Assembly: GCA_002281575.1 (NCBI GenBank)
Contig: NCGN01000003.1
Coordinates: 124,001-188,000 of the forward strand
Direction: 5' to 3'
Length of the DNA stretch: 64,000 nucleotides
Source of the DNA: Sphingobacteriia bacterium 28-36-52
GTDB taxonomy: Bacteria > Bacteroidota > Bacteroidia > Chitinophagales > Chitinophagaceae
Numbering within the stretch: the stretch's first letter is position 1; each line of letters starts with the position of its first letter. The translations under genes and the position numbers were made by a program. This document shows positions 4,639 to 39,872 of the stretch, one piece after another. The notes below the pieces were generated by a model that was not told the DNA's origin, searched no databases, and saw only the letters and a list, made by a program, of their open reading frames with translations.

Positions 4639-5663
4639 CTTAGTTTTTCTACCCATTTGCGAATCACTTTGTACGCAATCAGGTATTTAATAAAAAGGAG
4701 CATACTGTATTTAAATGATATCCAGTTGATGTCTAAAACCAGCGCACCCCAAGCCTGCTTTAGTGCAGCTTCTGTATCGTTTAATTCGTGGTAAATTTTA
4801 TGAGATAGTTGTGCAAAGTGTTGAGAGAAATATTTTTTAGACATTGCATTTACCTCGTCTCTAACATCTAAGGGTAAATACGCTCTAATAATACCAATTA
4901 CTTTAGTTACGTCTTCAATATTCTTTCCAGACTTTAATGCTTCTGAGTAGAGTGCTTTGCCGTGAATTCTAAAATTGGCCAATACCTTGGGCACATATGC
5001 CAGCTCTGCATGGGCAGCAATTCTTACGGTCATTTCCCAAAACTCTCCATGTTCTGCCCCAAAATAACTACCCAATTTTTCGTATGTAGTTCTTTTAATA
5101 ACCATTGCAGATGGTTCCGTATTTTGCCTGAGTGCAACAGCTTTAACCCAGTTTTTTAGTAAGCCCCTCTCCTTAGCCAAAGGTTGGTGTTTCCAGATTG
5201 GTGTACCTCTTTCATTAATGTATTGGAATTCGGTAAACGCTGCGCCTACTCTTGGGAACTCATTAAATAAAGACAAAATTTCATCGTAAAAACCGGGCAT
5301 TACATAATTGTCTCCGTATAAAAGATGTACATACTTTCCTCTTGAAAGCTTAATACAGGTTTCTAAATTCCTCAACCTTCCTACTTTACTGGGCTGTCTA
5401 AAATACCCTATCCTACCTTTTCCAGTGTCTTTAACCAATTGTTCTACATCTCCATCTGTACTTGCATCGTCTACCACCAACATTTGCATAATACCAATAC
5501 CTTGATCTAACTCTAAAATGGATAATAAAGTGGTGTTTAAGTAAGTGAAAGTATTGTCAACAGCAATAATTACCGACCAAACGGGTTGATCGGTTTCATC
5601 GTGCAGTGGTGCAATTAGCGGCGGCCTAGAAGGTATTCTCTCTCGTTGTTCTGGTTTACGCAT
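4635..5663 (-). CDS. Glycosyltransferase family 2
   Basis: 342-residue GT-A fold glycosyltransferase that moves a sugar from a nucleotide donor to an unknown acceptor. It opens the domain with WSVIIAVDNTFTYL, then LVVDDASTDG (nucleotide-binding aspartates) and SRGKYVHLLYGDNYVMPGF, where GDN occupies the place of the metal-binding DxD. The last ~100 residues form a helical tail with a hydrophobic SMLLFIKYLIAYKVI stretch that may contact the membrane. It is a single gene, divergent from the cation transporter and convergent with the OsmC gene. No polysaccharide cluster is nearby, so the product cannot be guessed. Confidence 0.88.
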   Translation of the reverse strand: MRKPEQRERIPSRPPLIAPLHDETDQPVWSVIIAVDNTFTYLNTTLLSILELDQGIGIMQMLVVDDASTDGDVEQLVKDTGKGRIGYFRQPSKVGRLRNLETCIKLSRGKYVHLLYGDNYVMPGFYDEILSLFNEFPRVGAAFTEFQYINERGTPIWKHQPLAKERGLLKNWVKAVALRQNTEPSAMVIKRTTYEKLGSYFGAEHGEFWEMTVRIAAHAELAYVPKVLANFRIHGKALYSEALKSGKNIEDVTKVIGIIRAYLPLDVRDEVNAMSKKYFSQHFAQLSHKIYHELNDTEAALKQAWGALVLDINWISFKYSMLLFIKYLIAYKVIRKWVEKLS

Positions 5664-5751: not shown

Positions 5752-6747
5752 ATGTACCAAAGTAAACAGAATTTTGTGGTTCAAAAGTGGGTTACAGCCC
5801 TAAGTGTGGTCTTATTTGTGCTTAAAATCACTGCTTATTATTTAACCAATTCATTAGCCATTCTTTCAGATGCATTGGAAAGCATTGTTAATATAGTAGC
5901 TGGTTTTATTGGATTATACAGCTTATATGTTGCCTCCAAACCACGCGACGAAGACCATCCGTATGGACATGGAAAAGCCGCATTTATTTCCGCAGCTGCT
6001 GAAGGCAGCCTAATTATTGCAGCAGGCATTTTAATTATTTATGAGACAGTTGTAAATATGCTGGCCAACCATACGGTACAACAATTGGATCATGGAATGT
6101 GGCTGGTAGGGGCTACAGCAGTGCTCAATTATATTGCTGGCGCAATTTGTATTAGGATTGGTAAACAGAACAAATCATTGGCATTAGAGAGCAGTGGCAA
6201 GCACTTGCAAATTGATACTTTTTCTACAGTTGGTGTTCTATTGGCTATTGCACTCATGTATCTAACCCATCTATATTGGATTGATAAACTAATCGCATTT
6301 ATTTTAAGTGGCTGGATCATGTACAATGGGTATACCATTTTACGCAAATCGCTTGCAGGTATAATGGATGAAGCAGATGAACAAATGCTGAATGAATTTA
6401 TTCAGGTTTTAGAAACACATAAAAAGCCCAATTGGATAGACTTACACAATCTTAGGGTAATCAAATACGGAGATTTATTGCATATTGATTGTCATTTAAC
6501 CTTACCCTGGTATTTGAATATTCACGAAGCCCATTTAGAGATAGACGAATTATCCAATTTAATTAAGACCAATTTTGGAGATGCCATTGAATTATTTGTT
6601 CATACAGATGGTTGCTTACATTTCAGTTGCGCTATATGCACCAAAAAAGACTGCACTGTAAGAACCCAACCATTTCAAAAACAATTGAATTGGACCATCC
6701 TGAATGTGGTCTCTAATCAAAAACACAGTCTTGCCAAGCAGGTTTAA
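5752..6747 (+). CDS. Cation diffusion facilitator (CDF) family transporter
   Basis: Inner-membrane metal/proton antiporter that exports divalent cations such as zinc, iron or manganese. Helix II carries LSDALESIVNIVAGF, followed by the loop motif HPYGHGKA. Helix V carries the second metal pair, GKHLQIDTFSTVG (H...D). The C-terminal cytoplasmic domain has the expected HNLRVIKYGDLLHIDCHL segment. At about residues 290-315 it ends in a cysteine-rich tail, GCLHFSCAICTKKDCTVR, with four cysteines that could bind metal; similar tails occur in other Bacteroidota CDFs. Metal specificity is not readable. The M20 peptidase follows 33 bp later. Confidence 0.92.
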   Translation: MYQSKQNFVVQKWVTALSVVLFVLKITAYYLTNSLAILSDALESIVNIVAGFIGLYSLYVASKPRDEDHPYGHGKAAFISAAAEGSLIIAAGILIIYETVVNMLANHTVQQLDHGMWLVGATAVLNYIAGAICIRIGKQNKSLALESSGKHLQIDTFSTVGVLLAIALMYLTHLYWIDKLIAFILSGWIMYNGYTILRKSLAGIMDEADEQMLNEFIQVLETHKKPNWIDLHNLRVIKYGDLLHIDCHLTLPWYLNIHEAHLEIDELSNLIKTNFGDAIELFVHTDGCLHFSCAICTKKDCTVRTQPFQKQLNWTILNVVSNQKHSLAKQV

Positions 6748-32725: not shown

Positions 32726-34039
32726 ATGCAAGTTGATAAAGTTACCTTACACGATCTGTCTGTATTTCATTCAGAGGAATATCAATCGGTTTTTCACCAT
32801 GTTAACTTAACCCTTACCAATGGAGGCCGAGAATACTTGCGTTATTTACTAGCCCACCCACTAGATAGTGTTAAAGCCATAGAACAAACCCAATTGACTA
32901 TTCAACAGTTGGGTAATATAGTGGATCAATACCCCATCAGCCCTTCTAATGGAACCGTATTGGTAATGGAAAAATTTTACGAGTCTCCCATTAATAATTA
33001 TCCGTCCGATATAGGAGTAGTTAATGCGTACATCTATAAATTATTAAACCTTGCTGATTATTCCTTATCCAAGTTTACGGTTGAACATGCGCTTGATTTT
33101 GTACAAGGGATGGATAAAATTTCGCAGTTAATCCGTTTTGAAAACGGATCGGTTTTGCTTAATCAAACTGCCGAGCGCATTCAACAATTGCTGAACAAGG
33201 AAACGGTGCAAGAAATGATTCAGGCAAATAAGAAAAGCCTATTTCCTGTAACTATTCTAAAGTTTGCACAGTTTTTAAGAACCCGATATAAAAATGCCAC
33301 CGAAGAACTGATTGAGATTCACAGCAAGTTAGATGCTTATTTGAGTTTAGCGAAAGCTGCCCATAAATTTCATTTTACCTATCCAACCGTTGTTGAAACC
33401 AATGAGCCCTGTATTGAAGCAGAAGGCTTGTATCATTTTTTACTAGAAGTACCGGTTGCCTATGAAGTACAACTGAATCAGTCTGCTAATTTTATTTTCT
33501 TGACTGGAGCGAATATGGCGGGTAAAAGTACTTTTATTAAAGCTGCAGGATTGGCTGCTTATATGGCCCATATAGGAATGGGGGTGCCTGCAAAAAAAAT
33601 GAAAATCAGTAGACTGGATGGAATTCTGAGCAATATTCAGGTGTCAGACAATATCATGAAGGGTGAAAGTTTTTTCTTCAATGAAGTTCAAAGAATTAAA
33701 AAAACCATCGAAAGAATCAGTGATGGTAAAAAATGGTTGATTTTAATTGACGAATTATTTAAAGGAACCAACCAAGAAGATGCAGTAAAATGCAGCACGG
33801 TGGTTATTGAGGGTTTGCGAAAATTACCCAATGCATTGTTCATACTATCCACGCATTTATATGAAATAGGCCATAATCTCAAACACCATCCCAATATACA
33901 GTTTCGCTATTTTGAAACTGCTGTTAACAACGACCAATTGGAGTTTAGCTATCAATTAAAAGAAGGAATCAGCAATGACCGTCTAGGTTACCTTATTTTA
34001 AAAAGAGAAGGGGTGGTATCAATGTTAGAAAATTTATAG
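32726..34039 (+). CDS. Short MutS-family ATPase lacking the mismatch-binding domain
   Basis: 437 residues that keep only the lever/clamp-like helical part and the C-terminal ABC-type ATPase of MutS. Walker A is LTGANMAGKSTFIKAAG (about 260-275), Walker B is LILIDELFKGTNQED, and the signature and H-loop regions follow (ILSTHLYEIGHNL). The N-terminal mismatch-recognition domain with its Phe-x-Glu motif is absent, and there is no Smr nuclease domain as in MutS2. The group is common in Bacteroidota without a proven function. A second, diverged copy lies 2.7 kb downstream at 36697. Confidence 0.88.
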   Translation: MQVDKVTLHDLSVFHSEEYQSVFHHVNLTLTNGGREYLRYLLAHPLDSVKAIEQTQLTIQQLGNIVDQYPISPSNGTVLVMEKFYESPINNYPSDIGVVNAYIYKLLNLADYSLSKFTVEHALDFVQGMDKISQLIRFENGSVLLNQTAERIQQLLNKETVQEMIQANKKSLFPVTILKFAQFLRTRYKNATEELIEIHSKLDAYLSLAKAAHKFHFTYPTVVETNEPCIEAEGLYHFLLEVPVAYEVQLNQSANFIFLTGANMAGKSTFIKAAGLAAYMAHIGMGVPAKKMKISRLDGILSNIQVSDNIMKGESFFFNEVQRIKKTIERISDGKKWLILIDELFKGTNQEDAVKCSTVVIEGLRKLPNALFILSTHLYEIGHNLKHHPNIQFRYFETAVNNDQLEFSYQLKEGISNDRLGYLILKREGVVSMLENL

Positions 34040-36555: not shown

Positions 36556-36696
36556 CTTTAGATTTAGGGTTTTGTAAACCCAAATAATGGGCATTCAAAA
36601 CAATCATAAAAGGGTTTTTTTGGTAAATAATATAAAGTTGCCTAAATTATATTGTTATTAAGTAAATTACATAAATTTTTTAAAAAATAGCCTTTT

Positions 36697-37995
36697 GTGC
36701 ATAATAGACTTGTTGCTGATTTAAATTTTTTATCTACTACTGGTGATGGAATTTTAGACAAGTTCGATTTTACAAAAAATGATGATTCGCGGAGAACCCT
36801 AAAAAACATAATAATAGGAGAAGCTCTTACTCTTGAAAGAATTATCGAACTACAATCCATATTTAAATATTTACTTGCTAATTTTTCAGTTCATGAAAAA
36901 TTTTACTTAAGTAATTCAGATAATTATTATTTGAAAGAATATCTAGGTGTTGAGACAAAAGTATTAAACAACAAAAAAGGTGGAAAAATCATACTGTCTA
37001 TTCAATTTTGGTTTAACAAACCTCAAGACTATCATAAAATTTTATCTGGCATTAAGCATTTCGTTATTATTTTTTTTGAAAAGTGGAATATTATTAAGCA
37101 ACTCCCAATCAAATCAATGCCAAAAACAATACGTGAAATTTATGAAAGAGTTCAAGACGTTGCCAATTACTTTTCTCTTTCAAAAGAGATATCAAATAAG
37201 ATTGTATCAGACAATATTTCCAATTTAGAGCTATTAAAGTTGGATCAAAAAATTAGAATTGAAAATTCAGAAAAGATTAAAGAGTTACTTTTTGACTTTT
37301 ACAATTTAGAAGCTTATCTATCGATAATAAAAGCTGTTAGAAAGTATAATTATATTTTTCCTGATTTTATTGAGGGCAGCGATCTTGAAATAGAAGAAAT
37401 GTATCATCCGCTTGTTTCTGATTGTGTTACTAATAATTTCAAGTACGAGTCTGGCTTAAATTTAACTTTTTTGACTGGGCCTAATATGTCGGGGAAATCG
37501 ACATTGTTGCGCACACTTGGTCTTATTGTTTACTTAGGGCATCGAGGATTACCTGTTCCGGCTCAAAGAGTTTTGATGCCATATTATGAGGGCATCTTTA
37601 TATATCTAAATGTTACAGATGATGTTATAAGCGGTGATAGTTATTTTCTTGTTGAGGTTAAAAATGTAGTTGAGCTTTTGAATGAGTTAAAGCAGGGTAA
37701 ACGTTGCTTCGCTATATTTGATGAATTGTTCCGAGGAACGAATTATTCAGATGCAATAGAGTGTTCGAAAACACTTTGTTTTGAATTAGCGCCATATAAA
37801 TCATCTTGTTTTGTTGTATCAACGCATTTGTCAGAATTATTTAAAAATTATCGCCTACCTGAGATGAGTTTCCTACAATTGTCATCACGTCTAGAAAATG
37901 AAACGCCTGTATTTTTATATAAATTGAAAACGGGAATGTCCAAAGTGCATATAGGAAAGATTTTACTTGATAAATATTTAAAAAATATAATATAA
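36697..37995 (+). CDS. Divergent short MutS-family ATPase in AT-rich island
   Basis: 432 residues. Walker A TGPNMSGKSTLLR at residues 260-272, Walker B FAIFDELFRGTNYSDA near 340, then VVSTHLSELF; all ATPase elements are intact. The N-terminal part is helical and Lys-rich, and the mismatch-binding and Smr domains are absent. It is related to the copy at 32726 but clearly divergent, and its codons are much more AT-rich than those of the neighbours to the left. The start is a GTG at 36697, fixed by an in-frame stop 9 bp upstream. The lipoprotein gene with the fulvocin-like tail follows 39 bp later, so the two may be one transfer unit. Role unknown. Confidence 0.82.
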   Translation: MHNRLVADLNFLSTTGDGILDKFDFTKNDDSRRTLKNIIIGEALTLERIIELQSIFKYLLANFSVHEKFYLSNSDNYYLKEYLGVETKVLNNKKGGKIILSIQFWFNKPQDYHKILSGIKHFVIIFFEKWNIIKQLPIKSMPKTIREIYERVQDVANYFSLSKEISNKIVSDNISNLELLKLDQKIRIENSEKIKELLFDFYNLEAYLSIIKAVRKYNYIFPDFIEGSDLEIEEMYHPLVSDCVTNNFKYESGLNLTFLTGPNMSGKSTLLRTLGLIVYLGHRGLPVPAQRVLMPYYEGIFIYLNVTDDVISGDSYFLVEVKNVVELLNELKQGKRCFAIFDELFRGTNYSDAIECSKTLCFELAPYKSSCFVVSTHLSELFKNYRLPEMSFLQLSSRLENETPVFLYKLKTGMSKVHIGKILLDKYLKNII

Positions 37996-38034
37996 ATAAT
38001 TGAAAAAATTATGTATATTCAAGAAAAACTATTT

Positions 38035-38700
38035 ATGGAACAAAAATCTTCTAAATCTGCTTTTACCTTTTTGTTTTTATTTCTATCTTCTCTTTTAATC
38101 CTATCATGTAAGAAAGAAACAAAAAGTTTTAGCTGTAATCCTGAAATAGATAAATATGTTAAGGCAAATGCTGTAATGGTTAGCACTTTTGATAGGGCAA
38201 CTTTAGGTCAAATGCGTGCTGATACAGCTGTGGCAATTCTCCATTTTTTAAGCGGTGACCAAAAGTATAAATTGTGGAAAGAAAAGTTTGAACTTGAAAT
38301 GAAATCTCTTTCACCAATAGAACGTGAATACTATTCAAAGCTTACAAGCAAACACAGCGCTTTAATATTCACAAATGAAAAAGAGCGTCAAAAATTTGAA
38401 AATTTTGCAATTTTGTGGGCAGAGGAAGTCAAGGAAGCTTTGAAGTGGTCTGATGAAAAAATATTTTATTTGACTAATGTATTAGCAACAGAAAGCGAAA
38501 TAAAGCAAAAAAAGTCTCAAGATGGAACAATAAAAGTTAATAATGTGGGAGAGGTAGGGCTTGATGGTGCCACTTGTTATTGTTATTATAGTATAAGTTG
38601 TGATTTGGGAAAATTATGTATAGAAAAGGAATGTGGAACGAACTATAAAACTGACTGTGGTATCGGTGGTTCATCAGCTTGTATTGGAAGATGTGAGTAG
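38035..38700 (+). CDS. Lipoprotein with C-terminal eight-cysteine fulvocin-C-like domain
   Basis: 221 residues. A lipoprotein signal peptide ends in LLILSC (Cys25). A helical middle follows (about 30-155; MRADTAVAILHFLSGDQKYKLWKE region, acidic and Lys-rich). The final 41 residues are packed with eight cysteines (181-220): CYCYYSISC, LGKLC, KEC, TDC, GSSAC, GRC. Number and order of cysteines resemble the myxobacterial bacteriocin fulvocin C as I remember it; Bacteroidota homologs are named fulvocin C-related. Whether the tail is cleaved and toxic is unknown. No exporter or immunity gene is recognisable. An ATG at 38011 would lengthen the signal by 8 residues. Confidence 0.8.
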   Translation: MEQKSSKSAFTFLFLFLSSLLILSCKKETKSFSCNPEIDKYVKANAVMVSTFDRATLGQMRADTAVAILHFLSGDQKYKLWKEKFELEMKSLSPIEREYYSKLTSKHSALIFTNEKERQKFENFAILWAEEVKEALKWSDEKIFYLTNVLATESEIKQKKSQDGTIKVNNVGEVGLDGATCYCYYSISCDLGKLCIEKECGTNYKTDCGIGGSSACIGRCE

Positions 38701-38745
38701 CTTATTGTCTTGACAAAAGAAATCAGAATATTTAAATTATTTCTA

Positions 38746-39138
38746 ATGATGAAAACTTTAATTAAAATGTTTATAATTATTGTTACTGTTAATTGTTCTA
38801 GTTGTTCAAACAAAGCTGAAATTCATTTCGATAATATCGATCTTGGTAAAATTGAAATTAAAGATACTGTCTACGGGGAAGCAAAAATTCAGAATATAGG
38901 GAATAAGCCTTTAAAAATTAATAGAGTAGTCGCTTCGTGTAATTGTACTACAACAGGATATGATACTACTCTAATTGCTAAAGGAGACTTCGTTGTAATT
39001 AAATATAAAATATCTTTAAAAGACACAGGTTATTTCTCAAAAAAAGTTACATTTAGTGCAAATACAAAGGATCAATTTCATTCATTTACAATATCTGGGG
39101 TAGCATTTGAAAATACTCTTAAAAACATTGATCAATAA
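38746..39138 (+). CDS. DUF1573-domain exported protein
   Basis: About 130 residues: a hydrophobic leader (MMKTLIKMFIIIVTVNCSSC), possibly lipid-modified at one of its cysteines, then a single Ig-like DUF1573 domain. Family features are IDLGKIEIKDTVYGEAKIQN, NIGNKPLKINRVVASCNCTT and the FSANTKDQFHSFTISG strand. DUF1573 proteins are periplasmic and frequent in Bacteroidota; some sit beside peptide-export genes. A TTG at 38710 would start earlier, but the Met pair at 38746/38749 fits the signal better. It is 45 bp after the fulvocin-like gene on the same strand, so co-expression is likely. Confidence 0.8.
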   Translation: MMKTLIKMFIIIVTVNCSSCSNKAEIHFDNIDLGKIEIKDTVYGEAKIQNIGNKPLKINRVVASCNCTTTGYDTTLIAKGDFVVIKYKISLKDTGYFSKKVTFSANTKDQFHSFTISGVAFENTLKNIDQ

Positions 39139-39872
39139 CTGTAAAAATGCACTGTATTATCATAATAAAAAAAATCGAAAATTTAGTGATTTGAATATCA
39201 GAAATTTTTATCTAGAATTCAGTCATTTTATAAGGTTCCTTTTCCATCCAGTTGGTATTTTGTTATACAAAGATTCAAGAGGTCTATGTTTATTATATTA
39301 TCCACTTTTTGTGACCTTCGCTCGAAAAAACCGACTATTGTAAAAAAATAAAAACTGGACAATTATTCATAATCTAAGTTCAAGTAATAACTGCACTTTT
39401 TTATTATTGCACTTGACTATAGTTTAGGTAATTAAATTATCTTATTGGTCTATTATTCAATAATTGTTCTACTCTTTTAATTTGATATGAAGGCTTCCCA
39501 TTTTCAGTACGCATTAAAAAGACATTTAGATAAAGATAGTGTTGAATTTATGTTGACTATGATTAAGATGAACTAATAAAGTATACAAAACTATTTTGCT
39601 GTCTGCATAAACTTATCAACAGCTAAATACTCCTATCATATTAATTCTCAAATACGATAGGTGCAACCTGCAATTTCTGAACCAATTTGGCCTCGATTAT
39701 GATTGGTATTTTAAGGTGCCTATTTAATTGAGAAAATAGCTTTTATGGTTGCTTCTCGAAATATATTTTCGCTTCCTTTGCGTGATTATAGAGATAGTCG
39801 AATTGGTCTGGATGCAGTAAGTGAAATTGGAATTAATGTAAGCAAGCTTCAAAATTCATTTTTGAGCAGATC
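39139..39872 (+). other. AT-rich stretch without a credible gene, possible gene remnants
   Basis: About 730 bp, strongly AT-rich. The open frames in it are short and of biased AT-driven composition (39107-39343, 39745-39951). A 29-codon frame at 39487-39576 (MKASHFQYALKRHLDKDSVE...) and an unstarted frame ending near 39727 (FLNQFGLDYDWYFKVPI) look more protein-like, so decayed genes are possible. No RNA gene, terminal repeat or integrase fragment was recognised. Confidence 0.4.

Follow-up and report, generated by a model that had tools for sequence, protein, structure and literature searches.

At positions 38035–38700 of the forward strand, the stretch of DNA analysed here (the window, 64,000 nucleotides from Sphingobacteriia bacterium 28-36-52) carries an open reading frame for a 221-residue lipoprotein with eight cysteines crowded at its C-terminus. 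An earlier note on this DNA, made from the letters alone, compared this tail with fulvocin C, a myxobacterial bacteriocin, and proposed a long leader or carrier from which it is released as a peptide that may act on competitors. This raises the question whether the protein indeed belongs with fulvocin C, how the latter is itself produced, and which function may be expected for the product of this gene.

Layout of the protein and its family

The signal peptide (38035–38109) ends with a lipobox, ILSC, as is expected of an exported precursor in this family, and Cys25 (38107–38109) is the residue predicted to be lipidated. An in-frame ATG at 38011 would permit a longer version with eight additional residues (229 aa). 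Cysteines occupy positions 25, 34, 181, 183, 189, 195, 200, 208, 216 and 220; the last eight follow the spacing C-x-C-x5-C-x5-C-x4-C-x7-C-x7-C-x3-C exactly as claimed before, and the lipoprotein signal claimed with it was also found in place. The tenth cysteine, Cys34, lies soon after the lipid anchor and was absent from the earlier description. By eye, its stretch SCNPEIDKYVKANA looks like ECAEARAWVEANA near the start of myxobacterial leaders, but multiple alignment puts Cys25 rather than Cys34 at this site, so that any equivalence is tentative. Besides Cys34, the leader region (residues 26–178; 38110–38568), supported by the family match without the tail and by a leave-one-out profile, contains the family motif K..LW..K at residues 77–84. 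The helical character that had been ascribed to these approximately 150 residues is weakly suggested, since AlphaFold2 run on the single sequence without alignment gave a mean pLDDT of 37, too poor to test the disulfides as well. Among solved structures there was no meaningful match for the protein.

The NCBIfam model NF033852 (“bacteriocin fulvocin C-related protein”, fulvocin_rel), for which the curated cut-off is 35 bits, recognised the protein with 66.5 bits (E 4.7e-18), the match spanning residues 67–221 and profile positions 3–150 of 150; Pfam has no family for it. After removal of the tail, residues 1–180 scored 34.6 bits (E 3.1e-8, positions 3–99), and the tail by itself 14.6 bits. A profile built from 37 relatives, with the window protein left out, scored the full protein at 68.1 bits. 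It gave the leader or middle part 31.9 bits, a value that none of 997 shuffles reached, and the tail 13.4 bits, which 13 of 1000 cysteine-fixed shuffles equalled or exceeded. Seven cysteines of the tail occur in every one of the 38 members aligned, and the eighth in 35; Gly209 is found in all 38 and Trp81 is near-invariant. All eight cysteines of the ordered family pattern, ending with CG-x(n)-C-x-G-x-C, are present in the window protein, which lacks the family's common G before CG and W after CG.

Pairwise identity to every relative is low (about 17–29%), and a direct alignment of the tail with fulvocin C remains at background, as would be expected if this were an unrelated lipoprotein that shows the cysteine pattern by chance. 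The probability of that is negligible in view of the score on an independent curated model, the leave-one-out result, in which the leader by itself beats all shuffles, and the invariance of seven cysteines; profile scores rule it out. Membership is firm because of these scores and the conserved cysteines, mainly those of the leader and the cysteine frame, respectively, and we regard the protein, with confidence close to certainty, as a divergent member of NF033852. Thus the fulvocin C-related assignment of the earlier note was borne out. Both points on which it had been made to depend turned in its favour, as the similarity extends beyond cysteine content into the leader and the cysteines are kept in homologs; the suggested HMM comparison of the tail gave a clear answer for the whole protein and a weak one for the tail alone. 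Since the family is already named, the main point of that note describes nothing of a new kind.

The family is rare, patchy and strain-specific. The genome of the window has one copy, and genes of NF033852 were registered in 4 of 101 close relatives, in 12 of 299 genomes sampled from the order and in 4 of 394 sampled from the phylum. A single-protein pattern scan of genome contigs revealed no close relatives of the window protein, plasmid and phage records contained no match to it, and viral contigs, scanned with an alignment of fulvocin C and the tail of another Bacteroidota member (L024), gave no confirmed case.

The precursor of fulvocin C

Fulvocin C is a small bacteriocin with four disulfides, which was purified and known as a free peptide decades ago; its primary structure, from Myxococcus fulvus, was reportedly established by Tsai and Hirsch in 1981, a study cited in PMC8708641. 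To our knowledge, no other member of the family has been tested for killing. The sequence used here for the mature peptide begins with ANC. It matches the last part of the NF033852 profile (positions 108–148, E 1.1e-6), and scanning of genome contigs independently led to Myxococcus sp. CA023, where the match is 90%. This copy (L046:8001–8127) is a frameshift-broken relic; intact relatives exist, and genes scoring 105–125 bits are present in 14 of 145 Myxococcales genomes. Intact myxobacterial precursors comprise approximately 215 residues, are secreted and have the same leader as the family of the window protein. In one of them, L068, the signal and leader are followed by ANCSCSTASDYC...CNGDCLY, a tail with an identity of about 75% to the mature peptide (z = 12 when compared with cysteine-fixed shuffles), and the junction between D and ANCSC falls at the place where fulvocin C starts with ANC. 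Since this leader is joined to a fulvocin C-like C-terminus, the gene comparison shows that fulvocin C forms the C-terminal end of a secreted precursor built like the window protein, from which it is cut, and that its known start gives the site of processing. No description of this layout was found in the literature searched, which covered few subscription papers; together with the recurrent redox partner considered below it appears to be new.

By analogy with L068 and fulvocin C, the peptide of the window protein would comprise residues 179–221 (38569–38697; ATCYCYYSISC...CIGRCE), i.e. 43 amino acids with a mass of about 4575 Da given four disulfides and a slightly acidic predicted pI of 5.1. 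Fulvocin C has its eight cysteines in the same order and, judging from L068 and other Myxococcales loci, a homologous precursor layout. Nothing except the cysteines is shared by the two peptides when they are aligned directly (z 0.5 over cysteine-fixed shuffles), and the link of the window tail to fulvocin C runs through the family, not through direct likeness. The idea of a leader with a released tail gains real support from the precursor layout and the fulvocin C-like C-terminus of L068, and release itself is predicted by analogy.

Unlike the window protein, most members from myxobacteria begin with a plain Sec signal that lacks a lipobox; one myxobacterial protein (L069) looks lipidated. 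As the lipobox is found in many Bacteroidota members, the lipoprotein form, previously thought unusual for a bacteriocin, is usual for this branch and no oddity of the window protein. In pairs of myxobacterial genes both leader and tail are mostly under purifying selection (dN below dS in most pairs); in some pairs the tail changes faster than the leader, and no sign of diversifying selection on it was seen in these pairs. Downstream of its fulvocin C-type gene, L068 has a ceramidase-like gene (PF04734; 7603–8910), and L070 and L046 look alike in this respect by eye.

Probable redox companions and the inserted cassette

Starting 45 bp 3′ of the fulvocin C-related gene, the window encodes on the same strand a lipoprotein-like DUF1573 protein with an SCNC (CxC) motif (38746–39138, also open from a TTG at 38710; PF07610, 62.6 bits). 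DUF1573 is the next downstream gene in three loci (the window, L023 and L024), whereas usually in Bacteroidota, namely in 14 loci, this place on the same strand is taken by a gene for a membrane thioredoxin-fold protein (L022, L027, L028, L030, L031, L033, L035, L036 and L084–L089, with L090 weakly). Locus L027 has both, the thioredoxin-fold gene being first and DUF1573 second. The companion profiles were built partly from the loci counted; thioredoxin-fold genes of L086, L088 and L089, which were outside the training set, matched with E from 1e-16 to 1e-19, that of L085 rests on a Pfam match, and L035 supports the count more weakly because it has just a fragment of the family gene. Thus membrane-anchored proteins of TlpA/DsbE/ResA type and DUF1573 are recurrent downstream companions in Bacteroidota; next to the window gene DUF1573 stands alone, in place of the thioredoxin-fold protein. 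The myxobacterial loci listed show no linkage of either redox gene to the family gene.

In selenoprotein forms of DUF1573, UGC occurs at the motif that reads SCNC in the window protein (PMC9312934; PMC13188914), which suggests redox use of the motif and such a role for it here. The DUF1573 protein is, consequently, a probable thiol-redox companion of the precursor, and the recurrence of such neighbours suggests that they serve as dedicated disulfide partners in Bacteroidota. Neither thioredoxin-fold proteins nor DUF1573 were found linked to fulvocin-type precursors in the literature searched. In two of the Bacteroidota loci the family gene is adjoined by a tiny ABC system of an approximately 100-residue membrane protein and an approximately 215-residue ATPase (L022:7162–8057 and L023:972–1930).

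The gene and its DUF1573 neighbour are two of three in an AT-rich insertion of 3.3 kb (36556–39872), flanked by an amine oxidase gene and a convergent YifB/ComM-like gene. Its GC content is 0.29 versus 0.373 ± 0.013 in other 3.3-kb stretches of the window. In a sister genome (G016, L115) the site is empty, the amine oxidase and YifB-like genes being convergent and about 20 bp apart. Both the composition and the empty site indicate that the fulvocin C-related gene sits on recently inserted DNA. In another sister genome (G036, L114) the same site accommodates a different AT-rich cargo of two genes, and therefore looks like a hotspot for cargo; this pair (L114:5192–6555) encodes a 256-residue lipoprotein ending with GGACAQ and a 192-residue secreted protein, with no NCBIfam match for either. 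In a further genome (G030) the family gene is elsewhere and other genes are near YifB. The first gene of the insertion, AT-rich and directly upstream of the lipoprotein gene, encodes a divergent MutS domain V ATPase (36697–37995, forward strand; PF00488, 96.6 bits), for which the best relatives in the genomes searched are 28–36% identical; no close relative that could point to a donor was found among them. A usual-type MutS domain V gene is present in the window as well, at 32726–34039. The edges of the insertion have no convincing direct repeats, Rfam gave no matches within it, and a search there for relics of ABC or thioredoxin-fold companions revealed DUF1573 only; a match to the ABC ATPase of L034 falls inside the MutS-like gene.

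Proposed function and competing readings

Based on these data one can assume the following order of events, which, being in part an extension from fulvocin C, we favour with modest confidence. The precursor would be exported by the Sec system and anchored as a lipoprotein via Cys25, the conserved leader of about 150 residues bringing the eight-cysteine tail through the envelope. There the tail may acquire four disulfides, assisted by a thiol-redox protein of the envelope, for which the DUF1573 product is the probable candidate in this case. A protease would then cut just N-terminal to residue 179, and the 43-residue peptide thus released may, in the manner of fulvocin C, target competing bacteria. 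The cassette of three genes itself was presumably gained by horizontal acquisition. An antibacterial function as such, which is assigned by analogy, seems somewhat probable. The slightly acidic pI predicted for the tail, unlike that of many membrane-active bacteriocins, counts against this explanation, and so do the likeness to fulvocin C in cysteines only, the low family score of the tail by itself and the lack of any sign of diversifying selection on the tail in the myxobacterial pairs. In addition, no gene next to that of the window protein could be recognised as a dedicated protease, exporter or immunity gene.

It may be that the tail is never released and the protein stays anchored, its disulfide-rich domain either acting on contact as a tethered toxin or having a structural or binding task at the cell surface. 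The anchor may matter for such a function, being common in Bacteroidota members and mostly missing from myxobacterial ones; the leader, recognisable by its own profile score and with dN well below dS in myxobacterial genes, is conserved like a working domain, and the window gene has no linked protease gene. However, mature fulvocin C was described as a free peptide, and its start fits the junction in a homologous precursor, and since the myxobacterial protein L069 seems lipidated too, the anchor by itself cannot separate the two functions; we consider a permanently tethered tail rather unlikely. Repeated linkage to genes of thiol-redox proteins, conservation of the CxC and CxGxC motifs, the additional Cys34 and a patchy distribution without a recognised immunity gene can also be reconciled with a non-antibacterial role, either as a redox or metal-binding partner in the envelope or as the precursor of a signal peptide, with thioredoxin-fold protein or DUF1573 as reductant or regulator. 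Against this, the family profile ties the protein to a purified bacteriocin, its cassette-like, strain-specific presence suits competition genes more than housekeeping ones, and eight cysteines with variable spacing suit a disulfide scaffold more than a metal site, so that such a role appears improbable as well.

In the literature searched the fulvocin family is mentioned in passing, with no studied mechanism. The comparison supplies it with a precursor and a predicted site of processing, and in Bacteroidota with a predicted redox partner as well, so that maturation and killing can be tested directly. As a family member the window protein is ordinary; the findings on precursor and redox partner are of moderate interest. 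If the partner link holds, DUF1573 acquires an assayable role. A broader and distinctly speculative generalisation is that lipid-anchored, disulfide-rich killing peptides are widespread but sporadic in Bacteroidota, each with its own thioredoxin-fold or DUF1573 partner in the envelope that oxidises or holds the tail, and travel between strains on small cassettes; in that event these peptides would give DUF1573 a first function, namely that of their disulfide factor.

Two loci deviate from the common arrangement. In L033 (8535–10096) two tandem fulvocin-related genes precede one thioredoxin-fold gene, and in both the final cysteine is shifted from its usual place in the family. In L090 a 105-residue protein (6072–6389) has an eight-cysteine fulvocin-like tail and shares its start with an unrelated neighbour (4793–5188), which makes it an apparent case of leader swap.
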